DNA of 20,259 nt from Candidatus Eiseniibacteriota bacterium (GTDB taxonomy: Bacteria; JAFGKV01): contig JALOPK010000080.1 in assembly GCA_025453925.1 (NCBI GenBank), positions 1-20,259 of the forward strand, written 5' to 3'. The notes under the pieces are model-generated. The model made no database searches. It saw nothing but the letters and a program-made list of their open reading frames with translations, and was not told where the DNA came from. How positions within the stretch are numbered: the stretch's first letter is position 1; the number at the start of each line of letters is the position of its first letter. The translations under genes and the position numbers were made by a program. Below, in pieces: positions 2,298 through 20,225 of the stretch.

Positions 2298-3230
2298 ATG
2301 TTGCTGAAGCAGCGCGTGATCGACCTCGCTCCCGACTTCATGGTGAAGCTCTTCGCGGCTCCCTACATCGCGGGAGACTCGGCCGAGGCCGCCGTCAGAC
2401 AGGCCAGCAGCCTATGGTCAGGGCGGAGGCTGAAGTCGACCATCGACCTCCTCGGCGAGGAGCTTACCCGTCGGGACGATGTCCAACAGACAGTGACGGA
2501 GTACCTGCGGCTCGTTGACCTCCTCGGCCGCCACGAGCTCGCGACTCTTTCGCTGAAGCCTACGCAATTGGGCAGCCATGAATCGGTGGACGTGTGCGCC
2601 GACCACATCGGCCGCATCGCCGCCTACGCCGCAGCGCAGGGCATCGGCGTCACCATCGACATGGAGGATCACACCTGTACCGACATAACCCTAGAGGTGT
2701 ACAGGAGGCTTCTGCCGCGTTTCCCGGGCCTCGGTACGGTCCTGCAGACACGGCTGCACCGGACGGCAGCCGACATCGAGGCGCTCAAGGGCAGACAGGC
2801 CCGCATCCGGCTCTGCATCGGCATCTACCTGGAACCCGCTGACATCGCCCTGCAGAAGAAGCCGGAGATGAAAGAGCGGGTGCTGACACAGGGCGAACGG
2901 CTGCTAGACGACGGGCACTACGTCGAGTTCGCCACCCACGATGAGGCGCTCATCGGGAAGATCCTCGACATGATCGCCCGCCGCGGTTTCGGTGGAAGCC
3001 AGTTCGAATTCCAGATGCTCCTGGGCGTGCCCAGGGATGCCGTCCAGCAGCGTCTCATCGCGGAGGGCCACACCGTGCGTCTCTACGTTCCGTACGCAGT
3101 CAAATGGTCCCACGCCTTGGGTTATGCCAAGCGCCGCTTGGCCGCCAATCCGAACATGGGTCTCTATGTCGCCAGGAACTTGATCCGAGGCATCTCCAAG
3201 TCAGCGGCACGACCGTATCGCGCCGTCTAG
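2298..3230 (+). CDS. putB: Proline dehydrogenase (monofunctional, FAD-dependent)
   Basis: A 310-residue PRODH-fold protein that should oxidise L-proline to pyrroline-5-carboxylate, passing electrons via FAD to quinone. Family blocks appear in order: TIDLLGEE (48-55), SLKPTQLG with K87 (85-92), DMEDHTCTD (121-129), VLQTRLHRT (148-156), RLCIGIYLEP (171-180), EFATHDE (210-216), FEFQMLLGV (236-244), and the C-terminal RLYVPY ... KRRLAANP, which keeps the paired arginines R279/R280. Length fits Deinococcus/Bacillus-type single-domain enzymes; there is no aldehyde dehydrogenase domain. Two blocks deviate: the usual RLVKGAY is RLCIGIY (Lys to Ile at 174), and the usual LQAYL is LQTRL. AAGGAG sits 9 nt before the ATG. 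No pyrroline-5-carboxylate dehydrogenase lies nearby. The symbol follows the monofunctional enzyme naming. Confidence 0.88.
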   Translation: MLLKQRVIDLAPDFMVKLFAAPYIAGDSAEAAVRQASSLWSGRRLKSTIDLLGEELTRRDDVQQTVTEYLRLVDLLGRHELATLSLKPTQLGSHESVDVCADHIGRIAAYAAAQGIGVTIDMEDHTCTDITLEVYRRLLPRFPGLGTVLQTRLHRTAADIEALKGRQARIRLCIGIYLEPADIALQKKPEMKERVLTQGERLLDDGHYVEFATHDEALIGKILDMIARRGFGGSQFEFQMLLGVPRDAVQQRLIAEGHTVRLYVPYAVKWSHALGYAKRRLAANPNMGLYVARNLIRGISKSAARPYRAV

Positions 3231-3299
3231 TCGCGACTGAAGTCGCTCCCACAGGAGTCGATGCTCGCTCCCATGGTCCGGGAGGGGTGCTCCCTCCGG
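3231..3299. repeat. REP-like palindromes directly after the proline dehydrogenase stop
   Basis: Immediately after the stop codon, GCGACT-GA-AGTCGC (3233-3246) forms a perfect 6-bp hairpin followed by CTCCCACAGG. This motif is familiar as a dispersed intergenic palindrome in many GC-rich genomes. A second, wobble-containing hairpin spans 3278-3299 (CCGGGAGG.../...CCCTCCGG). The CTCCCACAGG part also occurs in the 179-bp repeats upstream of the same gene. Confidence 0.6.
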
Positions 3300-3328
3300 C
3301 GCAAGAGCACCGGGGCTACCGCAGCGGC

Positions 3329-3371
3329 CTCGCCCCCTCACCTTCGTCCCCCCCAGGGAGAGGAGATCCCG
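3329..3371. repeat. CCCTCACC/GGGAGAGG dispersed repeat, copy 1
   Basis: CTCGCCCCCTCACC followed by a C-rich spacer and AGGGAGAGGAGAT. The same organisation appears at 4251-4296 and 5309-5353, each time in a gap between genes. Copies are diverged but keep the CTCGCC...CTCA head and the GGGAGA-type tail, which can pair with the pyrimidine-rich spacer. Confidence 0.5.
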
Positions 3372-3373
3372 CC

Positions 3374-3404
3374 ACTCCTCGCCACCCCGGCGGGGGCGAG
3401 GAGT
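3374..3404. terminator. Strong hairpin between convergent genes, candidate bidirectional terminator
   Basis: ACTCCTCGCC (3374-3383) and GGCGAGGAGT (3395-3404) pair perfectly over 10 bp around an 11-base GC-rich loop. It lies 6 bp beyond the mobB stop and 143 bp beyond the proline dehydrogenase stop, exactly between two convergent genes. There is no T-run on either side, so factor-independent termination is not assured. Confidence 0.5.
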
Positions 3405-3410
3405 TCGACG

Positions 3411-4046
3411 CTAGTCCATCACCACCTTCAGCACGATTTCCTCAACCTTCTCGGGCATGTCGCGCAAGGTGCTTACCGTGGCCCGCATCTGGGCCTCCAA
3501 CAGATTGGACACGAATTGATTGAGAGGGATGACGCGCCCGTTGACTTTGAGTTCCACCATGGCCTTCCTCCTTGTTTCTGACTCGGGCCCTGACGTGACC
3601 GGCACTTTACAGAACTGACTGGCCAGCATCTCCGCCAGCCATATCGCGGCATCTTCATCCACGGTCCTCAGCCGGGCGATGACCCTGCCTGGCGCAGGCC
3701 GTGGATCGTCCCCGATGACCACGCACCATCCGACCTCCGGGGTGCGCAGCCCCTCAGCGAAGACGAGATCGACGCGGCCAGTCATGATTCCCAGGATCTC
3801 AGGGACACCCAGGATCACGCTGTGTACGACTGCGTTGTCGGGCCCAAGCCCGGCAACGGGAGCCGCCCCCGCTGCGGCGAACCGTGCCGTGTCTTTTCCT
3901 TCGACATCGGGCGACAGGTGGTGGCCGCGCTTGATGGCCCCGCAGCGGATTCCGCGGGCGGTCAGGCGAGAGATGAGGCCCACAATCAGGGTGGTCTTGC
4001 CTGTGCCGGATTCACCGACGATGCTCACGATGGGGGGATGGTTCAT
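3411..4046 (-). CDS. mobB: MobB-like molybdopterin-guanine dinucleotide biosynthesis GTPase
   Basis: A 211-residue P-loop protein. It has the MobB layout: SIVGESGTGKTTL with Walker A GESGTGKT at 11-18, CGAIKRGHH at 35-43, KDTARFAAAGA around 51-61, and DLVFAEGL (93-100). MobB supports attachment of GMP to molybdenum cofactor, usually with MobA. The last ~45 residues (from VELKVNGRVIPLNQFV) form an extra C-terminal domain seen in a subset of MobB proteins. The frame is open to 4406, but the upstream part translates the heptad array and other repeats, so the ATG at 4046 is chosen. Its ribosome-binding site is a GGGGG run 9 nt upstream. No other molybdenum-cofactor gene is in the window, so its partner must lie elsewhere. 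Confidence 0.8.
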   Translation of the reverse strand: MNHPPIVSIVGESGTGKTTLIVGLISRLTARGIRCGAIKRGHHLSPDVEGKDTARFAAAGAAPVAGLGPDNAVVHSVILGVPEILGIMTGRVDLVFAEGLRTPEVGWCVVIGDDPRPAPGRVIARLRTVDEDAAIWLAEMLASQFCKVPVTSGPESETRRKAMVELKVNGRVIPLNQFVSNLLEAQMRATVSTLRDMPEKVEEIVLKVVMD

Positions 4047-4052
4047 GGTGGA

Positions 4053-4073
4053 AATCCCCCGCGATCCCCCTTT
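4053..4073. repeat. ATCCCCC doublet forming the mobB leader
   Basis: Two ATCCCCC units (4054-4060 and 4064-4070) are followed by TTT. On the minus strand this reads as GGGGGAT twice and supplies the only purine-rich ribosome-binding sequence before the mobB ATG. It resembles the widespread AAAGGGGGAT / ATCCCCCTTT dispersed repeat. The 435-base gap 4047-4481 otherwise holds a heptad array (4202-4243), one CCCTCACC-type repeat (4251-4296), and a short CCGAA/TTCGG hairpin near 4304-4320; no gene is seen. Confidence 0.45.
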
Positions 4074-4201
4074 GCAGGACTGGCTGTTGCCCACACCTGA
4101 CACTGCGGGTGGTGGGGAGTCTGCGCATATGCGTCCGTCGTGAGCCACGGAGTCTCCTCGCACGGCGGGAGAGGATGAAGATGAGGGGGCATCACGCGCG
4201 G

Positions 4202-4243
4202 GGCTATCGGCTATCGGCTCTCTGCTCTCAGCCATCGGCTCCC
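4202..4243. repeat. Heptanucleotide tandem array, GGCTATC x6 (inverse of the 107-148 unit)
   Basis: Six contiguous 7-nt units: ggctatc, ggctatc, ggctctc, tgctctc, agccatc, ggctccc. Read on the minus strand the units are GATAGCC/GAGAGCC, the same family as the array at 107-148. It lies in the non-coding leader of mobB. Confidence 0.75.
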
Positions 4244-4250
4244 GTGACGA

Positions 4251-4296
4251 CGCTCGCCCCCTCAACCCCGCCTCCTCCCTCGGGGAGAAGGGGTGT
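4251..4296. repeat. CCCTCACC/GGGAGAGG dispersed repeat, copy 2
   Basis: CGCTCGCCCCCTCAACC, then CCTCCTCCCTCGGGGAGAAGGGGTG. The CCTCCCTC/GGGGAGAAGG segment is self-complementary. It abuts the heptad array, as if the two repeat types travel or accumulate together. Confidence 0.5.
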
Positions 4297-4481
4297 TCTC
4301 TCCCCCGAATCCTTGGTTCGGACTCGTGCTGCCCTGGGCACACATGGCCGTGAGCGAAAGGACGGCGCATTCTGGCAGAGGGCGCACCTGTCTGCTCCCA
4401 CCGCACACCACCCCCACAGTGTTACGTGCGTCCCGTGTCCAGTTTGCGAACGGGGGATGTCGCAGCATGGGCGGGATGCCG

Positions 4482-5213
4482 TCAGTCTGCATCGTCGGAG
4501 GCGTCTCCGTGCCCGAACCGGATTCTGTCCAGGACCGACGTGAACGTCGGCGGGAGCGGGGAGTCCACGGTCACCTCAATGCCCGAGGGCGATCCAAATC
4601 GAACCCGCGTGGCGTGAAGCATGAGACGGGGCAGGCCCAGCTGAGGGCTCCGCTCGCCATAACGTGGGTCGCCGGCAACCGGGTGCCCGATGCTGAAAAG
4701 GTGTACTCGGATCTGATGACGGCGGCCGGTGCGCGGCGTGACCCGCAGCAGCGTGAAGCCGTCAAGGCGCTCCTCAACATCGTACGCAGTCTGCGCCGGT
4801 TTCCCCCGCCGCTGGTCGACACCCATCCTGCCTGAACCGAACTCCCGGATCGGCCGGCGAATCATCCCCTGGTTCCGGAGCATCACTCCAATCACAAGAG
4901 CCGTGTAGTGCTTCTCTACACAACCTCGACGGAACTGTTCATTGAGGTTTCGGTGCGCCTCGGCGGTCTTGGCGAAAAGGATCACGCCGCTGACTTCCTT
5001 GTCGAGTCGATGGACTACGAAGAGCCGTTGGCCCCGCTCGTCTGTCAGTTTCCGAAGGAGTGAGGGGATCTCATGGTTTCGTTCGGGGATGGACGCGAGC
5101 CCTTCCGGTTTGTCCACCGCGAGGATGTGGTCGTCTTCGAAGAGGATCATGTGCTGGCTCACATCACGGCTGACGCCGTTCCCACGGGACGAAAGGGCGC
5201 ATGTCCCGTCCAT
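4482..5213 (-). CDS. RluA-family RNA pseudouridine synthase
   Basis: A 243-residue pseudouridine synthase that isomerises uridine in rRNA or tRNA. The catalytic block HRLDKEVSGVILFAK places the nucleophilic Asp at residue 71, and RTGRRHQIRVHL (161-172) and LPRLMLHA (194-201) are the other RluA-family signatures. There is no N-terminal S4 domain: the protein starts directly with ILFEDDHILAVDKPEGL, as in the short RluA/RluC-like group. Substrate position cannot be assigned. The ATG at 5213 gives the longest frame. An internal ATG at 5150 (MILFEDDH, residue 22) matches the usual family start equally well, and neither has a strong ribosome-binding site. It precedes mobB on the same strand but is separated from it by 435 bp of repeats. 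Confidence 0.88.
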   Translation of the reverse strand: MDGTCALSSRGNGVSRDVSQHMILFEDDHILAVDKPEGLASIPERNHEIPSLLRKLTDERGQRLFVVHRLDKEVSGVILFAKTAEAHRNLNEQFRRGCVEKHYTALVIGVMLRNQGMIRRPIREFGSGRMGVDQRRGKPAQTAYDVEERLDGFTLLRVTPRTGRRHQIRVHLFSIGHPVAGDPRYGERSPQLGLPRLMLHATRVRFGSPSGIEVTVDSPLPPTFTSVLDRIRFGHGDASDDAD

Positions 5214-5308
5214 CAGGGGATACGCATCCTTGGGGAGGAAGGGCCGAAGTGTGGAGTCGCGCGGCTGAGACTGCTTCCTCCCGCCGTTCTTGGACGGCCG
5301 CTTTCCAT

Positions 5309-5353
5309 CGCTCGCGTCCTCGCCCTCACCCTCTGCTGGGAAGAGAGGGGATG
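5309..5353. repeat. CCCTCACC/GGGAGAGG dispersed repeat, copy 3
   Basis: CGCTCGCGTCCTCGCCCTCACC, a short spacer, then GGGAAGAGAGGGGATG. The 297-base gap 5214-5510 also contains a GCCGT/ACGGC hairpin near 5283-5298 and the GCGACGTGGCTAC motif (5403-5415) shared with the 179-bp tandem repeats. No gene is seen in it. Confidence 0.5.
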
Positions 5354-5510
5354 TCGTTGCTGCGGCTCCAGCGCTCTCGCGCCCGGAGGGGCAGGTCGCT
5401 GAGCGACGTGGCTACGTCCGAAGACCACGACAGCGGTGCAGATGGGCAGTGGGGTTCCCCGTGAAGCGCTGCTCACCGTCAATGGTGACCCGTAGACCCT
5501 GAACTGCCTC

Positions 5511-6167
5511 TTACCGAATCACGCCGAGCCAGGTGCGGAACAGGAAGTCCGCACGGCCGATCAGGAGCGAAATCCGCGCCATGACCGTGAAGCCGAAAGT
5601 CGCGCCGAAGCCGATCATCAGAGTCCAGACGCCGACCCGTGCGACGGCCCCCACCGTTCCGCGATGGGGCTTTGAGAAGAAGAAGTAGGTGATCCCGCTG
5701 ATGGCGCCGAGAATCACCAGCAGGCCGTTGATGCCGTCCCACGTGCCCAGCGTCCGGAGGTCGATCATGCTGGCCTGGATCTGTCGGATCACCTTTGTCT
5801 GAAGGGAGAGGGGCACCACGAAACCCGCGCCGATGCCCCAGATGATGGCGATGGGGATTCGCGCCAGCCACGAATAGCGCCGGCTGTAGCGGGTGAAGAT
5901 CAAGAGACCGAGCGCGGCCGCCATGAGAAGCAGGAAGATGCCCACAGGGCCGGGGACTACGTTCCAGTTGTGGTCCCGGAACACGGGGATGATAAAGTAG
6001 GGGACGAAGGTCTGCCGGAGAAGAATGACCAGCCAGTACCCCGCTGACACACCGACCACCAGATACTCGGCAATGCGGTAGAACATGTTGTCGCGATGAA
6101 GGAACGAGAAGATGCAGAGGGTCAGCAAAGAGGCGACCCAGACGCCGGGATCGGTCGACAGGTGCAT
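5511..6167 (-). CDS. Polytopic membrane protein of unknown function (fourth gene of membrane operon)
   Basis: A 218-residue protein with about six hydrophobic segments (roughly 10-24, 31-52, 70-93, 103-122, 144-164, 179-200) and short polar loops. I do not recognise a family. The ATG at 6167 shares a base with the preceding gene's stop (TGATG), indicating translational coupling to the membrane operon that begins at 8731. Its position as last gene suggests a structural membrane partner of the upstream products. No catalytic motif is visible. No convincing terminator follows; the downstream gap is repeat-rich. Confidence 0.75.
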   Translation of the reverse strand: MHLSTDPGVWVASLLTLCIFSFLHRDNMFYRIAEYLVVGVSAGYWLVILLRQTFVPYFIIPVFRDHNWNVVPGPVGIFLLLMAAALGLLIFTRYSRRYSWLARIPIAIIWGIGAGFVVPLSLQTKVIRQIQASMIDLRTLGTWDGINGLLVILGAISGITYFFFSKPHRGTVGAVARVGVWTLMIGFGATFGFTVMARISLLIGRADFLFRTWLGVIR

Positions 6168-6991
6168 CAGACGCCCCGCTTCCTGGTCGCCAGGTAGGCG
6201 ATATTGCCCACAACGATGAGGGCCACAATGAGGACGTGGCAGACCGACTGGATGTTCATCCAGATGATGGCGCGATCACCCTGGCCCAGCAACGTTTCGT
6301 ATTCGGCTGCACCTTTGAGGCCGCCCAGAATCCCCTCGATCTGCCCCGACTGGAGGTAGTTGTAGTAGTCTGCCGCCATGACCGCGGTGACGCCGAGCGC
6401 CAGCGGGAAGTTGTAGCGCTCGTGGCCATACATGATCCAGTAGTCGACGCCGCTGGTAGAACTCACCGACATGACAAAACGCAGGTCCGCATAGTTCCTG
6501 ATCCCCCGCATGAGCGGCAGACTGTCCAGCGGGTTGTTGTAGAAGTCGATGGGGAAGGATTGCCGCATATTCTGCCCCATCGAGAGAATCACCGATGCGG
6601 GATACGGGCGATAGCCAAGAAAGACATAGTCCTCTCCGTAGGTCTTTCCCTTCTCCTGGGCGATGTGCCGAATCTCCGACTCGATGAGGCTGACGCCCGT
6701 CGCCGAGAGGCAGGTCGACACGAAGCGTGCCCCCCGGTCAAAGACATGCCGCATGATGGAGTAGGACATGGGCTCCAGCTCTGCCATGGTGTCGGGGCCG
6801 TAGTCCATGTCGATCAGAATGACGTCGCCGGGCTGCAGCCCATCCACCATGTCGTAGACCTTCTTGACCTCGGGTGTGACGCGCACGGGCAGCTTCACCG
6901 GGAAGAGCAACGGCAGGACCAGCGCCAGGGCCAGCAAGAGGAAAATGATGCGGCGGTCCATCCCCAGAATCCAGACCATCAGGCGGCGCAT
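6167..6991 (-). CDS. Membrane-anchored protein with large extracytoplasmic-type domain (third gene of membrane operon)
   Basis: A 274-residue protein with one hydrophobic segment near the N terminus (13-31), a soluble domain of about 200 residues (35-240), and a second membrane segment near the C terminus (245-267). The domain opens with QPGDVILIDMDYGPDTMAEL (53-72), a strand-then-acidic-loop pattern of an alpha/beta fold. Cys94 is its first cysteine. I recognise no named family. The frame is open to 7099, but that extension overlaps the preceding gene out of frame. The ATG at 6991 lies one base after the previous stop with GGGAGA upstream, so that start is taken. It is coupled to both neighbours, which argues for a stoichiometric complex. 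Confidence 0.75.
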   Translation of the reverse strand: MRRLMVWILGMDRRIIFLLLALALVLPLLFPVKLPVRVTPEVKKVYDMVDGLQPGDVILIDMDYGPDTMAELEPMSYSIMRHVFDRGARFVSTCLSATGVSLIESEIRHIAQEKGKTYGEDYVFLGYRPYPASVILSMGQNMRQSFPIDFYNNPLDSLPLMRGIRNYADLRFVMSVSSTSGVDYWIMYGHERYNFPLALGVTAVMAADYYNYLQSGQIEGILGGLKGAAEYETLLGQGDRAIIWMNIQSVCHVLIVALIVVGNIAYLATRKRGV

Positions 6992-6992
6992 C

Positions 6993-7622
6993 CTAGTCTC
7001 CCGCCATGTAGCTGCGTTCGATGCCCAGCATGACCCGCAGCGCCATGGATGCCTCGCCCAGGCCGATCCCGATGAGGATGGCCCGCTTCGCCGCCACATT
7101 GGGGACGTTCAGGAGCCAGTCGGCGATGGCGGGGAAGAGCCCGGCGCTCATCCGGTCGCCCAGGGGGACACGGCCCAGCATCACGAATGCGGCGGCAAGA
7201 AGCAAAATCGTGGACATCGCGCTGCGCGCGCGGAAGGCGCGGAACGCAGCCGAGGCGATGAAGAAGGCAAGCAGGCTGAACATCGTCGCGGAAATGGGAT
7301 TCAGGACATTGTTGTACATCCACATGAAAATCCCGCCGCTCCCCGCCTCGACAGAGCCGAAGAGCCCTCCCGCCACGGTCAGCACGAGCCCGACGATGGT
7401 GATGATGCTGTACTGCCACTGGGCCTGGCGCCGACGGATCTTCTGGAGGTGTGACTCCACGAGGCTCATGATGCCGATCAGGATCGTGAATACGCCGAGA
7501 ATCTGGAGCCAGATGTTGGAGACCTCGTATACCTGCTCGAACGAACGGTGGGGCACGAAGAACTGCACCGTGAGAACGAAGGCGCAGAGGAAGGTCAGGA
7601 AGACGGGCAGTTGCCGTTTCAT
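6993..7622 (-). CDS. Polytopic membrane protein of unknown function (second gene of membrane operon)
   Basis: A 209-residue protein with about six membrane segments (5-22, 38-56, 69-88, 110-132, 135-152, 183-203). A positively charged loop (HLQKIRRRQAQW, about 58-69) follows the second segment and would be cytoplasmic by the positive-inside rule. I recognise no family. The ATG at 7622 overlaps the preceding gene's TGA as ATGA and has no strong ribosome-binding site of its own, so translation probably depends on re-initiation. The next gene begins one base after its stop. Confidence 0.75.
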   Translation of the reverse strand: MKRQLPVFLTFLCAFVLTVQFFVPHRSFEQVYEVSNIWLQILGVFTILIGIMSLVESHLQKIRRRQAQWQYSIITIVGLVLTVAGGLFGSVEAGSGGIFMWMYNNVLNPISATMFSLLAFFIASAAFRAFRARSAMSTILLLAAAFVMLGRVPLGDRMSAGLFPAIADWLLNVPNVAAKRAILIGIGLGEASMALRVMLGIERSYMAGD

Positions 7623-8731
7623 TGCACGATATCCAGGAGGCGAACTACGGAGTCGGAGCCCAGCGTGACGGCGAGCGTGCCGGCAATCACCAGCGCGACT
7701 ACGATGAGCTTGGCGATGTCCTGCGCCTTGAGCGTGCCCAACTGCAGCGGATCGTTGGAAAGGTAGGCGCTGGCCGCGTAGAGCTCCTCACCCATGAGCG
7801 TGTAGTCGCATGCCGCCACGAAGAAGGGAATTTGCGTCAGCTCGTCGGTGCCGGCGATCTGGATCGAGCCGGCCTGAAAACCGGTCTCCGCCAAAATGAG
7901 CGACTCCGCGTAGAACTTGCCCAGGTAGAAATTGGTCGCGGGTCTCTCCCGGAGCATCAGCCCGTTCACGGCGGCGGTGAAGGGAAACTGCTCCGACGTC
8001 ACGTAGAAGACGTCTCGCTCCTGGTACGCCTCGGGCCGGCCCGCATTGATACAGGAGGCCTTGACCACTTCCTGCGCGATGATCATGACCGTGGCATACG
8101 TGTTGGGTACGATGAGCCGCGTCCCATACTCCGCGGTTCGCTTGGCGACGCGGCCCAACACGGTGAACGCGGCGATGGTGGCCACTTCGGACGCCTCCCC
8201 GATGCCGGGCACGAACAGGATGGGCTTCCCCATCTCCGTTGCCCGGCCGATGGCCTCATCAACGGCACCGATGCCCGCGATGGGTCGCACGTAAAGCTGC
8301 ATGCCTCGCCGTGCGTGGTGGATCATGAGCAGCATTATGGCGGCAAACCCCACGCTGAAGACCAGTACCACTGCCTTGCCGCGATGGAACCACTGTGCCA
8401 AGGGGATGGCCTGCGCTGAAGGATACTCGCGGCTCCACCTCTCGGCCTGAGCGATCAGCCGGTAGTAGTAGGGCTGCCCGTCGGTGAGGCTGTCGGAGTC
8501 TGAATAGCGGAGCGCAGAGGCAGGGAGCACCGCGACGGTGTCGAAGGGGCCTGCCTCGACCGCCGCGCGGAGCACCAGGTAGCGATCCGGCTGACCTTCC
8601 GCGGGAGGTGCCCAGGACAGGGCAACCGTGCCTCCATGGTCGTTGGGCGTGTCCACGGCCTCCAGGCCGGCCGCGGGCGCCGGGCCCCGGAGGGCCAAGA
8701 GAATCAGGGTGATGATCCAGCACGCGGGCAC
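7619..8731 (-). CDS. Fn3-containing membrane protein with a conserved domain of unknown function (first gene of membrane operon)
   Basis: A 370-residue protein. Residues 1-21 look like a signal peptide (ends PAPAAG), about 25-108 read as a fibronectin type III domain (VALSWAPP ... YYYRLIA), a membrane segment spans 119-138, and a soluble block of about 200 residues (146-345) precedes a last membrane segment (349-368). The block carries dense invariant-looking runs: GAVDEAIGRATEMGKPILFV, GKFYAESLILAETGF (271-285), QIAGTDELTQIPFFVAACDY and TLMGEELYAASAYLS. I associate this with a DUF family (possibly DUF6754) but cannot verify that. An ATG at 8746 is in frame, yet its first codons are themselves the AAGGAGG ribosome-binding site for the GTG at 8731, so GTG is preferred. 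Confidence 0.8.
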   Translation of the reverse strand: MPACWIITLILLALRGPAPAAGLEAVDTPNDHGGTVALSWAPPAEGQPDRYLVLRAAVEAGPFDTVAVLPASALRYSDSDSLTDGQPYYYRLIAQAERWSREYPSAQAIPLAQWFHRGKAVVLVFSVGFAAIMLLMIHHARRGMQLYVRPIAGIGAVDEAIGRATEMGKPILFVPGIGEASEVATIAAFTVLGRVAKRTAEYGTRLIVPNTYATVMIIAQEVVKASCINAGRPEAYQERDVFYVTSEQFPFTAAVNGLMLRERPATNFYLGKFYAESLILAETGFQAGSIQIAGTDELTQIPFFVAACDYTLMGEELYAASAYLSNDPLQLGTLKAQDIAKLIVVALVIAGTLAVTLGSDSVVRLLDIVQ

Positions 8732-8736
8732 CGGCA

Positions 8737-8743
8737 CCTCCTT
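8737..8743 (-). promoter_or_regulatory. Ribosome-binding site deciding the operon's start codon
   Basis: AAGGAGG on the minus strand sits 5 nt before GTG 8731. It overlaps codons 2-4 of the longer frame beginning at ATG 8746, which has no ribosome-binding site upstream. The predicted transcription start (near 8754) would leave the ATG only an 8-nt leader. Confidence 0.7.
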
Positions 8744-8760
8744 CATCGACAGAGGTGAAC

Positions 8761-8794
8761 AGTATGCTCATCCCGGGGGGCGAGGTCAACCTCG
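8761..8794 (-). promoter_or_regulatory. Promoter of the membrane operon with overlapping dyad
   Basis: TTGACC (8784-8789, minus strand) and CATACT (8761-8766) are spaced by exactly 17 bp. A perfect inverted repeat CGAGG-TCAA-CCTCG (8781-8794) covers the -35 hexamer and lies between this promoter and the divergent one for 8861. It is a plausible operator or activator site; which protein binds is unknown. Confidence 0.6.
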
Positions 8795-8860: not shown

Positions 8861-9832
8861 GTGGCACGTCACGATGACAGCACACGGCAGAATCTGTCCG
8901 CCCTCCCCGAGGGATTCCTCTGGGATACCCCACAGTGGATCCGAACCGATCACCTGAAGGCCCACCCGGCGAAGTTCATCGCCCGCGTACTCATCGGGGG
9001 ATTCGTCGGGCTCCTATTCGGGCGAGTGCTGGGCAGTCTGCAGGGTCTCTTTCTTCAGTGGGTCTATGATGGAGTACTCCGTGCCATGCCAGGTGTGGAG
9101 GGAAGCGTGGGGCGCATCATCCATGCGGTGGCGGCCGGGCTGGGAACCATGGTGGCTCCACTCCTGTTCTCCAGTCCGCTTTCGACCAGTCTGTCCGAAC
9201 TCCGTGACACGGGCGGGGGGTCGGCGGCGATTCTGTTTCTTGCCCAGCTTCACGGATCGGTCAATGGGATCTTCCAGGGGGTGCGCCCGACGCTGGGAGA
9301 CCGGTGTCAGACCGTGGTCGAACGTGTCCTTCTCGGGTGGGGGATGCTCTGGCGGCTCATCACCCGGCCCCTGCGGGCGTTGATTCAACGACCGCCCTCG
9401 ACCCGAGAACTCCACGTCTTGTTGTCGGATGCGGGCAGACAGGAAACGGCGAAGAAGCTGATGAACCTCTTGCGCCGGGGCCTGCTCCCCACCCCCGAGG
9501 AGACGCAGGGTGGAGAGGAGATCCTGCTGGCCGCCTGGCCCGGCAAGATCCCCCCCGAGAAACGGCCCGAACTGTGGTGGACGAAACCCGCGGTGCGGGT
9601 TGAGGTGTACCGTTGGATTGAATCCACCCGCCGGCCCGATGCGCTGCCCTTACTCGCGCGGGGGCTGAACGATCCGGATCCAGATGCCCGACGGGCCGCC
9701 GTCGTCGCGCTCGCCGCACTCGGCACGCAGGAGACGGTGCCCTACCTGGTGTCGCTCCTTGACGAGGGCCCCGAGATCCGCACGGTTGCGGTTGCGGGCC
9801 TGAAGCGATGCGCAGCGGAGATGGAAGCATAG
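8861..9832 (+). CDS. Membrane-associated HEAT-repeat protein
   Basis: A 323-residue protein. The N-terminal third has two or three hydrophobic stretches (about 39-63, 85-108 and possibly 121-141). The C-terminal region holds two HEAT-type helical repeats (about 258-318: DALPLLARGLNDPDPDARRA, then ETVPYLVSLLDEGPEIRTVA), a protein-interaction scaffold. No enzyme motif is visible. The start is GTG, with AAAGGAG 8 nt upstream; no ATG fits as well. Its promoter is divergent from the membrane operon across about 130 bp, so co-regulation or joint function with that operon is reasonable to suspect, but this rests on position alone. Confidence 0.78.
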   Translation: MARHDDSTRQNLSALPEGFLWDTPQWIRTDHLKAHPAKFIARVLIGGFVGLLFGRVLGSLQGLFLQWVYDGVLRAMPGVEGSVGRIIHAVAAGLGTMVAPLLFSSPLSTSLSELRDTGGGSAAILFLAQLHGSVNGIFQGVRPTLGDRCQTVVERVLLGWGMLWRLITRPLRALIQRPPSTRELHVLLSDAGRQETAKKLMNLLRRGLLPTPEETQGGEEILLAAWPGKIPPEKRPELWWTKPAVRVEVYRWIESTRRPDALPLLARGLNDPDPDARRAAVVALAALGTQETVPYLVSLLDEGPEIRTVAVAGLKRCAAEMEA

Positions 9833-11371: not shown

Positions 11372-14300
11372 CTACATTCGGTTGAGCTTCTCCTCCAACT
11401 CGGCGGCCCATTCAGGCACGGGGACATCCAGGTCCTCCACGATCCGGGTCTTCATCAGCCCCAGGTAGTAGCGCGCTTTGGTCGGGAGGTTCAGCTGTAT
11501 GCAAGTCGAAGGGATCTCCGCCAGGGCATGCAGGCATCTCACCAGCAATTCGCTCAGGAAGGCCCTCCTCGACTCTGCGAATGATTCGTATCGCGCGTCC
11601 TCGAGAAACTTCCCACGGTAGAGGGTGGCGGCCGCACGGAGGAGAGGGACGGCTTCGTCGTACTGACGCCCTGCAACGGCCGCAAGGCCTCGTTCCGCCG
11701 ATCTCTCGAAGGCCCGGTCGGTAATCTCCACGTCATCCGCACAGTAAAGCCTGTACGACCCGTGCTCTGTCCTCACCTCGACGTGGCCCCCGGCGCCGGC
11801 GGCCGAGAGGATCTTCCGCAGGTTGCTGACCTCGTTGTGCAGGCTGTGTTTGATCTTGTCCGGGTCCCCGTCGGGCCAGAGAGTATCGGCGGCTTCGTCC
11901 AGGCTGATGCGATGCGAGGGGCTCGCCAGCAGCAACCCGAAGAAACGCTTGGCTTTGCGGTTCGCATTCCATCCACGCTCCTGAGTCGCCCCCCCCACCA
12001 GCAACTGCAGGGCACCAAGGGTGTGAATCTCGATCCGTGCGCGCGGTGCATCGGCGACAACAGGCTGATCGCGACCTGCTGCCGCGGCGATGATCCGGCG
12101 TGCAGCGAGACGGCGGTCCGGCCACCACGTTGAGGCCGCTCGCTCCGCCCAGAGGACGAGATCAGAGTCACTGGCGGGTAGGAACTTGAAGCCGTGGAGC
12201 ACCATCGCCTCACAGAATCGCAGCAAGTCGGCCCGCGCGCCCTCGCCGTCTCCACGCCGCTCGGATGCATACGCCCTGCACACCATGGCGTTGGCCCACA
12301 CGTGTGCGGCGCGTTCAGCATCGGCGCGGGCCGTCACGTCGTCAAACAACTCGCCGGCGGGCTCCGCGTAGCCCTCACGTAGCAACAGGAACCCAAGGAG
12401 CAACCGATCCCACAGCCGAGCACCATCGCCATGCGCCATCTCCCCCCCGGCTCCATCGGTCGCAGGCACCGAAGACCCCGTGCTACGTGCGATCAAGCGA
12501 CGGCAATGGTCGATGCGAAACGACGCCATTCCCTCCGCCTCCGCCTCCGCCGCCCGTGACCTGGCCCCCTCCAGATCGCCTCCCCACACGGCACACATCC
12601 CCGCCAGACCCATCAGCTCCCGCCTGAGGCCAGTCGCGCGAAGACGGGCCGAGAGATCCATCATGCTCTCCACCCGGTTGGTCGCCGATGCGAGATCCCC
12701 CTCGAGGGCGTCGGCCTCGGCCAGCCATCTTTCCCTCATCAGCGAGGTGAACGCGGAATCCTCCCCTGCGGTGATGCGTGCAAGCGCGGCCCGGGCGGCC
12801 CCGTACTCACCACGGTGGCAGTGGAGCCGCGCCCTGCAGATCAAGGCAAGGCTCCAATGGAAGCCGTGGGTATCGCCTGCCAAGGTCTCCATGGCCTCTC
12901 TGATCAGTGGTTCGGCTTCACGGCCCGCGCCGATGTCGAGGAGGCGCCACGCATCCCACACCAGGGTCCATGGGGTTGCTTCCGGGAGCAGCCTTGCGAT
13001 CTTCCTCCAGCCCCAGAGCAGGCCGGGTTCTTCGCCGGCGTCAGGCGAGGCCGGTCTGGCCTCGGGGATGCTGCCGCGATCCGTGCCCGATGGTTCTATC
13101 GCCGGGTGGAGAGAATGTGTCCCCCTCACCAGAGCCATGAAACCGAGGAGCGCGCGGCCATGGTCGTCCACTCCGGCACATCGCACCAGTCCATCAGCCA
13201 GGGGACAGAGCAGACCTGGATCTTGGTCGAGCACAACGGAGAGCCCGATGGCCTGCAGGACCCTCGACGCCTGCGCCCCGTCCCCGGCCTTCACATAGGC
13301 CGAAATGGCGTCTTCCAGGTTTCCCCGGGCCTCCAAGATCCGTCCTGCCGCGGCCCACCGCTCAGACATCCGCGCGGCCCCGATCTCGGCTGCCAGGACA
13401 GCATTGAGCCGGTCCCGCGTGCGGTTTTCGATCACGTACCGTCCCCCCACGCGGGCCATCGGAGCGGTGCCGGATTCGAGGAGTCTGCGGAGTCGCTGCC
13501 CCATACCCGGGACTCCCGTGAGCGTGTCCGCATCCGCGGGCTCGATGGCGGGAAGAAGCGAAATCGAGAGCAGAAGCTCGCGGTCAACGAGATCGAGTGA
13601 GCGCAAGGCGCTGTCGCCCGGAGGTCTACAGGCCCAGATAACAGACGAGCGGAGCATCTCTCCCTCAGCGGGCTTCTCAGGGAAAGCTGCCGCGATGGCG
13701 GCGATGCCCCGCGGCCAACCCGCAGTGACCCGGCACGCAACGTCTATGATCTCGTCTTCCTCGAGGCAGGCCCACCGCCTGAGCGCTTCGTTCACCTCAC
13801 TCCGGCTCAAGGCCAGCCGGTCGGGTCCGACGATCGCCAGCTGTCCGATCCGGGCCAGACTGTCCAGGGCGGCAACAGGCATCACCGTGCCAGTGATCGC
13901 GACCTTTGCCCCTGGTGGTGTGGCGCTGAGAAGCCGGAGTGCGAACGCGACAACCAGGTCGGGGGATGGGGATCGATCGACGCCATCGAGCACGACGTGG
14001 AGTCCAGAAGAGTCCCCGCCCTGCAACAAAGAGGCCAAAACCCTTTCGCACTCCACGGCCGGCGCGTCGTGGGGGCCGGGACGGACCGCCGGGGCGGCCT
14101 CGATGCTGGAGGCTTCTTCGGTCACGCGCTGGGCGAGCCTCTCCGCCGAGGAGTCATCCGCCGTGATTGTCAGCCAGATCACCTGGGAGCCGCACTCCGT
14201 CACCGCATCGCGGAGTGCAATGGTTTTGCCGAAGCCCGACGGAGCGACGACGAGGGTCAGTCGTCGTTGGAGCGCCTTGAGGAGCAATGCCCGGAGGCGG

Positions 14301-15191: not shown

Positions 15192-16253
15192 TCACCGACC
15201 TCTCTCGCCTACCACCAGGAGAGACAGCGTCCGCCACGCATCACGCTGCCTTGACACCACCACCAGGTAGCTGCCCCGAGCGAGGTGTTCACCTTGGTCG
15301 GAAATCAGATTCCACGTGATTGTCCCGGACTGCGGGTCTGACGTAGTAAGGGAATGAACGGTGCGGCCGGCAAGGTCACAGACCCGAGCGGTGGCGCCCG
15401 GCTCGCGGAGCACGTCGCCATGGAGCCTGACATAGCCGACTGCGGGGTTTGGCCAGATCGAAACGACGAGTTGATCGCCGTTCTCCACGGGTTCCCCGCT
15501 TCCCGGGTCGAACCCGTTCACCAGCGATCGCGCGCGGGCCGCACACGCACCGTTGGCCGAGCGGTTCATGTGGTTGTCGGGGTAGGAGATCTCGTACTCG
15601 GCACGAAGCGTGTTCTCGTCTGGCTGCCCGGCAGGCCGCGCCGTATGGGCGAATGCGCTGAACCCCACCACGTTACCATGGGTCGAGTGCGAGCTGAGCC
15701 CCACACCAGTGTCTTCGAGCCACGCTCCCCATGACCTGCCTCGCGCACGCACTGCCTGCGGAGGGCAGTTCTCACCTTCCCGGTGATGGGGCACCGACGA
15801 ACAGAACACGAGCTTCTGCTCCGCGTGGTTGTTGAAGTAACCGACGATATCGGAGACGGAATGATCGATCCACCCCTGGAGTACCGCATCACTGACCAGG
15901 TACTCAGTGGGGTAGAAGCACGACTTGATGATGATGATGTCCGCATCCTTCGCATCAGCGGGAAGCCTGGCGCCATCGTTGATGAAGAGCGCGCACAGCC
16001 CCTGCCACTCCGGATCCCATTCGCAGTAGGGCGCATTGTCATCCTCGTGCCAGTTGTCCGTCACGGTATGGCCGTCGGTCTCCAAGTCGGCCCTGAGGTT
16101 CCCGCCGCCCCAGTCGGGATCCCACTCATCATAGTCGCGCAGCCAATTGTCGCCGGTGGATTGGTGGATGAAATGCACATGGGCAGCCCTGGTGCCAATG
16201 CAGAGAACCGCCAGGAATACGCACGAGCACAGCGCAATCTTCGTCGTGTTCAT
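15192..16253 (-). CDS. Secreted SGNH-like protein with C-terminal sorting domain
   Basis: A 353-residue exported protein. Residues 1-23 are a signal peptide (hydrophobic core LCSCVFLAVLCI). The body opens with HVHFIHQSTGDNWLRDYD, a pattern I associate with a group of secreted proteins of SGNH-hydrolase-like fold. Ser32 and the late DNHMN (226-230) could supply catalytic Ser and Asp/His, but this is inference. The C terminus (about 261-353) is a FlgD-like sorting domain: VSIWPNPAVG, ... VCDLAGRTVHSL, ... GSYLVVV. Its last strand is where T9SS-type cargo is recognised. The frame is open to 16760, but the upstream part lies antisense-frame in the esterase gene. AAGGAGG 8 nt before the ATG at 16253 fixes the start. 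It is the third gene of the secreted operon, 53 bp after the esterase. Confidence 0.78.
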   Translation of the reverse strand: MNTTKIALCSCVFLAVLCIGTRAAHVHFIHQSTGDNWLRDYDEWDPDWGGGNLRADLETDGHTVTDNWHEDDNAPYCEWDPEWQGLCALFINDGARLPADAKDADIIIIKSCFYPTEYLVSDAVLQGWIDHSVSDIVGYFNNHAEQKLVFCSSVPHHREGENCPPQAVRARGRSWGAWLEDTGVGLSSHSTHGNVVGFSAFAHTARPAGQPDENTLRAEYEISYPDNHMNRSANGACAARARSLVNGFDPGSGEPVENGDQLVVSIWPNPAVGYVRLHGDVLREPGATARVCDLAGRTVHSLTTSDPQSGTITWNLISDQGEHLARGSYLVVVSRQRDAWRTLSLLVVGERGR

Positions 16254-16306
16254 CGGTGGGACCTCCTTGGGATGCGGTGGGTACTCACGAGGGTGTGTTC
16301 CATTCC

Positions 16307-18439
16307 CTACCTGATGCGGATCACGCGCACAGCCCCTGCGTCGCCGTCTGCCGTCGTAAGGCGCACTGCATAGACGCCCGCCGGTACCGGTGCGCCGAGG
16401 GCATCGGTGCCATTCCATCTCTCGACATGGGTGCCCTGGCCCACGGTGCCCTCCTTCAGCGTCCTCACCTTCTCTCCTACAAGCGTGTAGACCCCCACCT
16501 CGACCTTGGCTGCGCGTGGCATGGTGTAATGAATCGATGTCTCGTGGAGAAACGGGTTCGGCGTGGGACGCGACAGCGTTGGGGTGACCGGTACACCATG
16601 GTCCTGTTCGTCCGCTGGCGTCGATGTCGAGATCACCAGCCGATTGCCCGCCTTGGTCACGGTGGCGGCCACCAAAGTCACGATCCCGGTGTCGCTGGGG
16701 GTGGTCTGTCCGGTCTGGACGACTTCGTTGCCGGGTAGTTGGAAGTTTCGCCAGTAGCACTGCGTCCCGGGCGGGGGCAGGAACTGCCGGACCCGCCGGG
16801 TTGTTACGTCAACGGTGCCGTGATCCGGCATTGTCTCGAGGCCCGGCAGCCCAGGGTCGTAGAGCCTGAGAGCAACCTCCCAGCGGTCGGGCGTTTCCAC
16901 AACATCGCCGGCGAAGTCATTCCAGGGGCACGACCACTCGATGCCGAAGTTGTAGTAGGCGAGGCTGTCGGGCACGACGAGGTTGAGCGTGGAGTTCGAG
17001 AAGCCGGGAAAGCTCCGGTCCTTTCGGAACGAGAAATCACCGAAGGTGAAGTTGGGTGTGTCGAGAAAGCCCCACCACGTGTGGTCGATGGGGAGGGCGG
17101 CCCCGACCCACCCCTGCGTCCGGCCGTCCATGATGTCATACCACGGCGCTCCCTGAGTTTCCCAGTCGACGACCTCATCCTGCGTCCCGTGGTAGGTGAC
17201 TATGTAGGCCATGTCGTCCCGCCACCGATCGACCATGCCTGCCCTGTGGTTCATCCAGAGCCAGACATTGGTGCCATCGTATTGAGTCAGATGGCTCGCG
17301 AAGGCCCCCTCGTTGATCACGGGGAGCGCATGGAAGGGGAGACCCCACTTGGGGGCGGTGTCGCCCATCCACAGCTCGCTCGCGTCGTAGTTGGTCATGG
17401 GCTCACTGCAGTAGACCGCGGCGAACACGTTGGGATAGCGCATGCCCAAGGCCAGGGCCCCGCTGCCGCCCATGGAATGGCCATAGGCGTAGATTCGGTT
17501 CTCATCCACGTTGAAACGAGCATCGCGCACTACGTCATGAATCGCACGGAGCAACCGTTGTTCGGTGAAGTTGCTGACGCTGCCTGCCTCGGGATTCGAC
17601 GGCAGCTCGCCCCAGATGTATTGGGGCCACTCATCACCCCAGGAGTGGTCCTTGGCGTACCCGTAGTACCAGGACTGGTGGGGATCATCGCCGAAGATCT
17701 GAATCGCGGGCCATCCGTAGCCAGTGCCATTCGCATGGTCGGTGAACGCCTCGACGTATCTGGTGCCCCACCCGCTGATCTGCAGAAACAGTGGATACTC
17801 CTGGCCGGGATCATATCCCTCCGGCAGACTGACGAAGTAGTTGTAGACATAGCCGTCCATGGTGGGATTCCACGCGCGGAAGTCCATGAACTGGGTGAAG
17901 ACCATGGCACGGCCGTTGGTTGATCGCCATACCATGACCGGGAGAGGTTCGTCAAACCCTTCAGCCACGCCGGCAGTGAGGGAGTTCTGGCCGGGCGCGA
18001 TGGTCCTATTCTCAGTTCCCTGCGCAACGCTGGTCACCGCATAGTAGGCGAGCGCTTCCTCGCCCTCGTGGACCGTGAAGACGTGCATCCCCTGTGTGTC
18101 CTCAAGCTCGGGGCCGAGATCGGCGATGATGAAGTTCTGCTGGACCGGGGTCATGCCGTAGTCGGTCATCCACCGCTCCGTCAGGTACATTGCGGAGGAA
18201 TCGGGAATCTGTGCCACCTGCATGGCGGAGGCGAGGTTGGCCGACGTGATGGGCTGCACGTGCCGGTAGATCCGGTAGTGCTCGTTGCCCACTCCGGGAA
18301 GCTCCCGCCACGTCAGAATGGTCTGGCCGGCACGATGAGTCGCGGCCAGTTCCGTGGGGGTTTGGGCGGCCAAGGGGCCCCATGAACCCAGCAGGGTTGC
18401 TGTGAGAAGCGTGAGAGCAAAGCGGCGTGTGCTGCGCAT
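16307..18439 (-). CDS. Secreted esterase/peptidase-like alpha/beta-hydrolase with FlgD-like sorting domain
   Basis: A 710-residue exported protein. Signal peptide is 1-25 (ends PLAAQ). An Fn3-like domain spans about 27-160. The alpha/beta-hydrolase is about 196-460: nucleophile Ser322 in YGHSMGGSGALALG, acid D421 in YHGTQDEVV, and His453 in IDHTWWG. This matches the esterase/prolyl-oligopeptidase-like (PHB-depolymerase or feruloyl-esterase-like) group; the substrate is unknown. A beta-rich linker follows, then a C-terminal FlgD-like/type-A sorting domain (about 623-710: RPTPNPF ... VYTLVGEKVRTL ... WNGTDALGAPVPAGVYAVRL). The triad is complete, so it is probably active outside the cell. GGAGG 5 nt upstream supports the ATG at 18439. 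It begins 28 bp after the FG-GAP gene. Confidence 0.85.
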   Translation of the reverse strand: MRSTRRFALTLLTATLLGSWGPLAAQTPTELAATHRAGQTILTWRELPGVGNEHYRIYRHVQPITSANLASAMQVAQIPDSSAMYLTERWMTDYGMTPVQQNFIIADLGPELEDTQGMHVFTVHEGEEALAYYAVTSVAQGTENRTIAPGQNSLTAGVAEGFDEPLPVMVWRSTNGRAMVFTQFMDFRAWNPTMDGYVYNYFVSLPEGYDPGQEYPLFLQISGWGTRYVEAFTDHANGTGYGWPAIQIFGDDPHQSWYYGYAKDHSWGDEWPQYIWGELPSNPEAGSVSNFTEQRLLRAIHDVVRDARFNVDENRIYAYGHSMGGSGALALGMRYPNVFAAVYCSEPMTNYDASELWMGDTAPKWGLPFHALPVINEGAFASHLTQYDGTNVWLWMNHRAGMVDRWRDDMAYIVTYHGTQDEVVDWETQGAPWYDIMDGRTQGWVGAALPIDHTWWGFLDTPNFTFGDFSFRKDRSFPGFSNSTLNLVVPDSLAYYNFGIEWSCPWNDFAGDVVETPDRWEVALRLYDPGLPGLETMPDHGTVDVTTRRVRQFLPPPGTQCYWRNFQLPGNEVVQTGQTTPSDTGIVTLVAATVTKAGNRLVISTSTPADEQDHGVPVTPTLSRPTPNPFLHETSIHYTMPRAAKVEVGVYTLVGEKVRTLKEGTVGQGTHVERWNGTDALGAPVPAGVYAVRLTTADGDAGAVRVIRIR

Positions 18440-18467
18440 GACAACCTCCGCGTGGTGTGGTTCCCCA

Positions 18468-20024
18468 TCAGGGGAGATCGCCGCCGAAGTCGGTCTCGCC
18501 CACGATGTTGGACTCAGGCGATGCCTGGCCCGGGCCGGTGGCAATGCCCAGGTAATAGTAGTTGATGTCGGGATTGCCAATGCCTGTGGTGAAGGTGTAC
18601 TGGGTGGTGGGCGCCAGAACTACTGTCCACGGCGTGGCTGCGCCCGCGTGGAAGTAAGGCAGTGTGCTCCGATAGAGATGATACTGGGTGGCGCCCGAAA
18701 TCGAGTTCCACCACAGGCGGGCGGATGTGCTGCTGATCAGCTCCAGGTGGAGTTCCATGGCTGGCAGGCCGGGAAGGTCGTCCCACTCATATGCATAGGC
18801 GGAACCGGAGTACGTGCCGTTCGGGTTGTCTTGGGGCGCGCCGGTGAGGATCCGCGTCGCAATGCTGACGGACATGCCGAAGCAATCCCCCGCGTTTCCA
18901 TCAATGGGCGTGCGCTTCGCGTGAGACGACCACGTCGAACCGTCACGGGCAAAGGAGTAGATGGCCCCCGAGCCTTCACCATTGGCGTCTTCCCCGTGGG
19001 CACCAATGATGGCGTGGGTTCCCAACCCGTCCATGCTCACCGACCAGCCGAAGTGGTCCCAGGCGGCGGCATCGGGAGCCACAAGCTTCGCCTGCTGGCT
19101 CCAACTCCCGGAGGAGTAGTAGTACACATAGGCTGAACCTGAACTCCCGCCGTCGTCGTCGTCACCGGGAGCACCCACAATAACGTGAGATCCGATTGCC
19201 GATGCGGCGACGGAATGTCCGAACTCGTCGCTGGAGGCACCGTCGGACGCCTGGAGTGCTCCCGATGGATTCCAACTCGACCCGCTCAACAGGAACACCC
19301 GGGCGGATCCCTGATCCTCATTGCTTCCGACGCGATCACCGGGGGCTCCGACGATGGCGACGGTGCCCAGCCCCGAGATGGCCACCGAATAGCCGAAGTG
19401 GTCGCCGGCGGCGGGGTAGGTATTGGCCAGCTCGGCCTCCTGCACCCAGGTGGTGCCGGTGGTTCGATGAAACACGTAGGCCGATCCGGAATCCTCGCCG
19501 TCCTCATCATCATAGGGCGCGCCGATGAGCGCATACTCGACGTTCACGACCGAGGAGATCGAGACCGAGGTTCCAAACTCGTCATACGCCTTCCAGGAAT
19601 CCGTGGGAACGAGCTTGGCCTGCTGACCCCACGTGGTACCACTGCGCTTGAAGACATACGCCGCCCCGGCCCCGGTGCCTCCACTCCACTCCTGCGGCGC
19701 CCCGACAATGGCGTAGTCGCCGCTGATCGCCACGGAATGGCCGAAGAGGACGCCGGGTTCGCCGTCGGACGCCGTGAGTTTGGCCTGCTGTGCCCACGTG
19801 CCGCCGCCCCGGTAGTAGATGTACGCCGATCCCTGGTTGTTGTTGCCGTTGACCTGATCCTGGGGAGCGCCGATGATGGCGTAGTCGCCATTGGTCGCCA
19901 CCGACCAGCCGAACCGGTCGTTAGCGGCGCCATCGCTGGGGTCCAGCTTCTGCTCGACGGCGTGCGATGCGGTGATGAGGACGAGAGTAGCGAGTACTGG
20001 GAGATACGATCTCGAGGCCTTCAT
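18468..20024 (-). CDS. Secreted seven-bladed FG-GAP beta-propeller protein
   Basis: A 518-residue exported protein. Signal peptide is 1-22 (cleavage after ASHA). Seven repeats of about 57 residues follow, each with an FGxSV signature (F38, F94, F150, F210, F268, F325, F382), a YAIIGAP-type strand, an acidic glycine-rich loop suited to calcium (for example DDEDGEDSGSAY), and a GxTWxQQAKL end. Seven repeats match the closed integrin-alpha propeller. An Fn3-like domain fills about 420-505. Unlike the two downstream genes it has no obvious PNP-type sorting domain and ends ETDFGGDLP. Likely an adhesive or matrix-binding surface protein. GGAGG 5 nt before the ATG at 20024 sets the start; 12 extra codons to 20060 are open but lack support. 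First gene of the secreted operon seen here. Confidence 0.9.
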   Translation of the reverse strand: MKASRSYLPVLATLVLITASHAVEQKLDPSDGAANDRFGWSVATNGDYAIIGAPQDQVNGNNNQGSAYIYYRGGGTWAQQAKLTASDGEPGVLFGHSVAISGDYAIVGAPQEWSGGTGAGAAYVFKRSGTTWGQQAKLVPTDSWKAYDEFGTSVSISSVVNVEYALIGAPYDDEDGEDSGSAYVFHRTTGTTWVQEAELANTYPAAGDHFGYSVAISGLGTVAIVGAPGDRVGSNEDQGSARVFLLSGSSWNPSGALQASDGASSDEFGHSVAASAIGSHVIVGAPGDDDDGGSSGSAYVYYYSSGSWSQQAKLVAPDAAAWDHFGWSVSMDGLGTHAIIGAHGEDANGEGSGAIYSFARDGSTWSSHAKRTPIDGNAGDCFGMSVSIATRILTGAPQDNPNGTYSGSAYAYEWDDLPGLPAMELHLELISSTSARLWWNSISGATQYHLYRSTLPYFHAGAATPWTVVLAPTTQYTFTTGIGNPDINYYYLGIATGPGQASPESNIVGETDFGGDLP

Positions 20025-20225
20025 GGTCTCCTCCGTGCGGATGAATGCGAGGTGGCACAAGAGCGCCGCTATCAGGCCCCATGTGTGGATGATCTCAGGT
20101 CTCCATGGAACGGAACGGGGCCACTACTCCTCAGTGTATGAGCCTCGCTCAGGGTTTTCTCAGATTCCGGGTATCAACAGGCGCGAAGGGAAGCCAGGTC
20201 ACCCTTGGCTCTGCTCGATTCCCTC

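Follow-up and report, generated by a model that had tools for sequence, protein, structure and literature searches.

An arrangement in which a shared energising module serves several membrane modules is known from the energy-coupling factor (ECF) transporters, and in the PilMNOP and GspLM platforms a cytosolic protein of the actin fold is linked to inner-membrane proteins, some bitopic and some polytopic. Here we describe a gene system that resembles both in layout and in which no ECF, PilN/O/P or Gsp family was found. It was encountered on a contig of 20,259 nucleotides from a Candidatus Eiseniibacteriota bacterium (GenBank assembly GCA_025453925.1, contig JALOPK010000080.1; the window), where four consecutive minus-strand genes, here called A, B, C and D, had been described in an initial annotation as a tightly coupled membrane operon. 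The comparative data strongly support that ABCD is a co-conserved four-gene system without described counterpart, and it is well supported that three further genes, c2, c1 and c0, form one system with it. We know of no system that matches the combination, the shared-engine layout and the predicted inverted topology. Two of its components belong to named families, and one of these (DUF6754) has no known function. The features of the locus are the following.

Gene A, 7619-8731, minus strand: likely start at GTG 8731; alternative start at ATG 8746 (375-residue reading, 7619-8746)
Signal peptide: N-terminus of the gene A product
Fibronectin type III (Fn3)-like domain of A: approximately residues 26-118 in the 375-residue reading from ATG 8746
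Membrane helices of A: residues 122-146 and 333-361 (375-residue numbering)
DUF6754 domain of A: residues 157-330 (375-residue numbering), Rossmann-like, predicted to be cytosolic
Gene B, 6993-7622, minus strand: six-helix membrane protein of 209 residues, no named family
Gene C, 6167-6991, minus strand: protein of 274 residues with a Rossmann-like domain flanked by two membrane helices; no named family
Gene D, 5511-6167, minus strand: six-helix membrane protein of 218 residues, no named family
Promoter-like site 5' of gene A, 8761-8789, minus strand: TTGACC-17-CATACT, 9 of 12 consensus matches

A scan of genome contigs with gene A yielded 79 distinct loci, among them loci in Fermentibacteria (82% and 70% identity). 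Other loci belong to Zixibacteria, WOR-3, Eisenbacteria, Latescibacteria, Gemmatimonadetes, Cloacimonadota, Coatesbacteria and Poribacteria, and further ones to Planctomycetota (including the anammox Brocadiales), Acidobacteria, Armatimonadota, Eremiobacterota and others. Around 100 relatives each of B, C and D, collected in iterated searches, adjoin relatives of A, and together with the DUF6754 match given below this puts conservation well above the chance level. The order A-B-C-D is kept in nearly all of the 79 loci, often in tandem (ABCDABCDABCD), and we counted 88 contiguous complete cassettes at 68 loci in more than 10 phyla, with a median gap of -1 base both between B and C and between C and D. 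The neighbourhood comparison suggested in the initial annotation thus shows that the four genes stay together in other genomes, and they do not fall into already characterised, unrelated families. In addition, we compared the distance matrices of the 79 usable cassettes, with 500 reshuffles of the cassettes within loci as a control. For all six pairs of A, B, C and D proteins the distances were correlated at r 0.81-0.87, a level never reached in the reshuffles, and therefore the ABCD cassettes duplicate and evolve as units.

The search recommended earlier for the soluble block of A identified it as DUF6754 (PF20539), with a score of 379.8 bits (cut-off 27 bits; E 6.8e-114) over 251 of the 257 model positions. 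PF20539 also matches all 78 aligned relatives of A. A is a clear member of this family, whose Pfam entry gives neither a function nor a system; none of the families found covers B, C, D, c0 or c2. The layout first proposed for A, a signal peptide followed by an Fn3-like domain, a membrane segment and the soluble block, was recovered, and a second membrane helix follows the block. All three sequence runs that had looked invariant by eye indeed contain residues that are invariant across the 78 relatives, where A280, E281, E287, T300, P307, F308, D314, G319, E320 and E321 do not vary. The Fn3 assignment follows from the structural model of residues 26-118, which aligns with Fn3 domains (Z 11.9, rmsd (root-mean-square deviation) 1.8 over 84 residues), and from the match of the family profile to titin Fn3 (E 2e-22), whereas the Pfam fn3 model is matched by only 9 of the 78 family members. 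Mean identity is 27.5% in the variable Fn3 region versus 61% in the soluble DUF6754 part, and such a variable extracytoplasmic part would fit partners that are specific to each module. The open frames that hold A are in some cases 930-990 residues long and include a long extra N-terminal region (G143:C1, G005:C7, G037:C48 and L057); in L057 (6045-8849, 935 residues) this region contains no recognised domain. The DUF6754 matches in two related genomes (G108:C102 and G244:C3) each hold one in-frame TGA. Four WOR-3 loci (L027, L028, L032 and L039) have two A genes for one B-C-D.

B, C and D matched no named family in family-profile searches and gave no match in sequence searches of the PDB. No homologues were found on plasmids.

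The initial annotation took the four genes as the complete unit. Their linkage was upheld but the unit is larger, with c2, c1 and c0 as further members of the conserved system. Clustering of the flanking genes revealed c2-c1-c0 as a recurrent block upstream of A, and across lineages the arrangements c2-c1-c0-ABCD, ABCD-c2-c1-c0, c2-ABCD-c1-c0 (with overlapping genes) and c2-ABCD-c1 occur; the gene order is shuffled between lineages, and the seven-gene cluster persists. In the genome from which the window derives, c2-c1-c0 is located on contig C314, apart from ABCD, and there are three ABCD cassettes (in the window and on contigs C207 and C195) and a lone A on contig C45. The c1 product belongs to the MutL/GlmL family within the ASKHA proteins (PF13941, 417 bits, E 1e-124); it shares the whole MutL domain and has the conserved phosphate/ATP-binding motifs ATDCGSTTTKAIL, GVDIGGATTD and GSGGVLSHAPRR. 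The c0 product, a soluble protein of about 376 residues, has a mean column identity of 58%. It matches the barrel-sandwich hybrid domains of RnfC/NqrA below threshold (E 0.013 and 0.036), and a PDB sequence search with it gave chance-level matches only. The c2 gene encodes a small conserved protein. The same genome also holds, on contig C148 (G000:C148; L097 3600-6686, minus strand), a diverged c1-c0 fusion of about 1030 residues, and similar fusions are found in G001, G002, G083, G117, G242 and G254.

The association extends beyond gene neighbourhood. Each part was searched for in the same 270 genomes, nearly all of them metagenome-assembled. A and C are each present in 74 genomes and co-occur in 72. 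All 69 genomes with c0 fall within the A set (69 of 74) and none outside it (p 7e-59; the co-occurrence p-values ignore shared ancestry and are indicative only). Strong MutL matches (E below 1e-30) occur in 77 genomes, 69 of which also have A. As the arrangements switch between linked and unlinked, mere hitch-hiking is unlikely. The system is thus found in about a quarter of a diverse sample, often in several copies, and its named relatives include candidate phyla, Planctomycetota with the anammox bacteria, Gemmatimonadota, Acidobacteriota and others. A membrane system of seven proteins that is conserved and has a predicted ATPase of its own suggests an envelope function that is absent from the models built on E. 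coli and Bacillus.

At least two A genes, and up to seven, are present in 36 genomes; all of these have c0, and each has a single full-length separate copy, the exception being G104, where the match is partial (295 of 374 positions). Within a genome, one to seven copies of A are hence accompanied by one separate c0 of full length and usually by one separate long c1, and several of the multi-A genomes also hold diverged c1-c0 fusions. This pattern resembles that of the ECF transporters, with one engine per genome and several membrane modules, which may be encoded at other chromosomal sites; mechanically, it would mean that c1 and c0 serve several modules. The components themselves differ from the ECF type: family searches found no ECF family among them, each module has four membrane proteins, and an ASKHA protein takes the place of the ABC ATPase pair as predicted engine. 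More specifically, the ATPase that is conserved in the cluster is of the MutL type, and ABC ATPases, of the Opp/Dpp type, adjoin ABCD only in a few lineages.

Protein models and charge distribution add a spatial aspect. A and C were modelled singly with AlphaFold2 (mean model confidence, pLDDT, 93.1 and 95.6, respectively), and the topology was derived from charge bias and hydropathy. In the models the soluble domains of both proteins are Rossmann-like and have a helix, six strand-helix units and a membrane helix in identical order, with an insertion of about 25 residues between strand 3 and strand 4 in C, where the domain (residues 40-235) is held between the two membrane helices. The charge bias across relatives places the domain of A in the cytosol and that of C outside; both termini of B lie inside and both of D outside, so that the two six-helix proteins have opposite orientations. 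The opposed domains of A and C together with the opposite termini of B and D therefore make the cassette look like two oppositely oriented halves. The matching we propose for A with C and for B with D is one of predicted architecture, not of common descent. The C-terminal strand ends are the usual ligand edge of Rossmann-like folds. In the models many invariant or near-invariant residues gather there, in A (G181, G276/A280/E281, G299/T300 and G319/E320/E321) as well as in C (P66/E71, G126, T202 and G224/G227/E230), and we infer that these conserved clefts may hold a ligand.

Solved structures offer distant resemblances. Besides Fn3, the nearest fold to A is that of the Sir2 protein 1ma3 (Z 11.1, rmsd 3.6, 143 aligned residues), without a sequence match; the DUF6754 fold was barely probed in this search because matches to the Fn3 domain take up the list. 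C aligns best by VIA-align with MT0777 (Z 10.0, rmsd 3.2, 138 aligned residues), followed by RCK domains (Z around 9), and reaches Z 8.6 with the Sir2 protein 1s7g, again without a sequence match. Foldseek returned no close structure for C, and its matches reflect a general Rossmann resemblance.

Considering these data, we tentatively favour the reading that ABCD and c2, c1 and c0 form an ATP-energised membrane machine with a shared engine and exchangeable modules, which probably moves or senses a small ligand. It would then represent an undescribed class of machine, a proposal to which we give a little less than an even chance, in which soluble c1-c0-c2 powers several exchangeable four-protein modules, with A and B facing the cytosol, C and D the outside, and a Rossmann-like domain that binds a ligand at each of the two faces. 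In such a machine c1 would bind and hydrolyse ATP and, via the adaptor c0 (and c2), drive a change of conformation in the ABCD module on which it has docked. This module would bind its ligand in the conserved clefts at the strand ends of the A and C domains and carry it across the membrane; reporting of the ligand is the less likely alternative. The modules would be exchanged on the one engine much as in ECF-type transporters, and the variable Fn3 domain of A could determine which partner or substrate each module has beyond the cell membrane.

Transport appears the most plausible activity. Several hints support the proposal, namely copy numbers of the shared-engine kind, the polytopic nature of B and D, the domains on both sides of the membrane and an operon in Gemmatimonadetes. 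In that locus (L082) the genes of a complete Opp/Dpp ABC transporter (2505-6788 and 11491-13485) are inserted among the seven: the solute-binding protein and both permeases lie between c1 and c0, and both ATPases follow D. Two Opp/Dpp ATPases and a large PD40-repeat protein are also retained after D in Latescibacteria.

Several observations weigh against a machine of this kind. The Opp/Dpp link is limited to a few lineages, and lone A genes and A-A-B-C-D runs occur. Moreover, five genomes have ABCD without a detectable c0 (G032, G060, G079, G219 and G257), one of which, G060, is a single-contig assembly. Profile comparison with HHalign, done for A with C with and without predicted secondary structure and for B with D without it, detected no homology in either pair (probability around 2% or less for A with C), so that the idea of an inverted pair rests on topology and not on descent. 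Finally, the functional statements go beyond the genetic association, and transport, ATP hydrolysis and complex formation are all inferred.

The alternative that survives best, although we consider it unlikely, is a membrane-bound enzyme accompanied by a dedicated activating chaperone. For MutL/GlmL, a role as reactivating chaperone of glutamate mutase has been described (PMC4682846). As a member of the same Pfam family, c1 could use ATP to re-activate a cofactor-bearing c0 or the domains of A and C, with ABCD carrying out redox or cofactor chemistry. The existence of c1-c0 fusions is in line with this, as are the Rossmann folds, which often bind cofactors, and the sub-threshold similarity of c0 to RnfC/NqrA. 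The last is also what links the system to the NQR and RNF complexes. However, the Nqr and Rnf membrane subunit families, NqrB/D/E included, gave no match in B or D (31 relatives of each), and the additional MutL ATPase sets the system apart from them. Moreover, searches of the components recognised neither an Fe-S, flavin or heme motif nor an enzyme family, and a single c0 for several modules sits less well with an enzyme.

Somewhat less likely still is a structural or sensory envelope complex, in which c1 would be an actin-fold platform that docks on membrane proteins in the manner of PilM or GspL, and ABCD would position or sense envelope components via Fn3. The ASKHA fold of c1 and the bitopic and polytopic nature of its predicted partners constitute the likeness to PilMNOP and GspLM, Fn3 is a typical binding module, and in three loci (L026, L065 and L076) two genes of the response-regulator type (c6) lie 3' of the cassette. 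The c6 link is rare, however, and the conservation of the strand-end clefts looks like that of a ligand site. In addition, Pfam showed no PilN, PilO, PilP or GspM family in A, B, C or D, and no PilN/O/P-like, Gsp or other secretion component recurs in the neighbourhood.

That c1 is an ordinary glutamate-mutase accessory, incidental to ABCD, is very improbable. It does belong to the MutL Pfam family, but it scores 223.6 bits against the GlmL equivalog NF040745, below the 475-bit cut-off, and it is longer than the classic short forms (about 600 versus 455-510 residues) and linked to a membrane module in place of a mutase partner. The reading is contradicted by the distribution and was rejected: the mutase E subunit (PF06368) has a strong match in only 5 of the 270 genomes, and the sole system-bearing genome among these (G121) has a separate short GlmL beside its mutase. 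Chance co-transcription of four unrelated membrane genes, for which it could be said that B, C and D have no family from whose name a relation might be read, was likewise rejected and has next to no probability given the order held in 88 cassettes over many phyla, the co-duplication and the co-evolution.

As to previous descriptions, no mention of DUF6754 or PF13941 was found in the searched open-access literature, a search outside of which most subscription journals fall, and targeted searches of the open-access literature gave no description of a GlmL-linked membrane cluster.

At the level of the window, the joins between the genes agree with the initial annotation: A and B overlap in ATGA, one nucleotide separates B from C (TAG-G-ATG), and C and D overlap in TGATG. 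All four proteins are membrane-associated as it had stated, with hydrophobic segments in each (six each in B and D, two in C). Its choice of GTG 8731 as the start of A is favoured over the first in-frame ATG (8746) because a strong Shine-Dalgarno sequence, AAGGAGGT, lies just upstream. For C, ATG 6991 is the sensible start, the longer mechanical open reading frame (start 7099) extending into gene B. The promoter with 17-bp spacing is present as a pattern, but it is weak in comparison with shuffled sequences, two sites of this type being found versus 0.7 +/- 0.8 expected.

The remainder of the window holds various other genes. A HEAT-repeat protein is encoded divergently from gene A (8861-9832, plus strand), followed by an FeS_assembly_P protein and a pirin. 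On the minus strand, a MobB-like P-loop protein with about 120 extra N-terminal residues (3411-4406; PF03205, E 6e-19) lies downstream of a pseudouridine synthase (4482-5213). Overlapping long frames at 15192-20060 (minus strand) contain FlgD_ig, esterase and FG-GAP repeat matches and are reminiscent of secreted proteins that carry an FlgD-like domain at the C-terminus.

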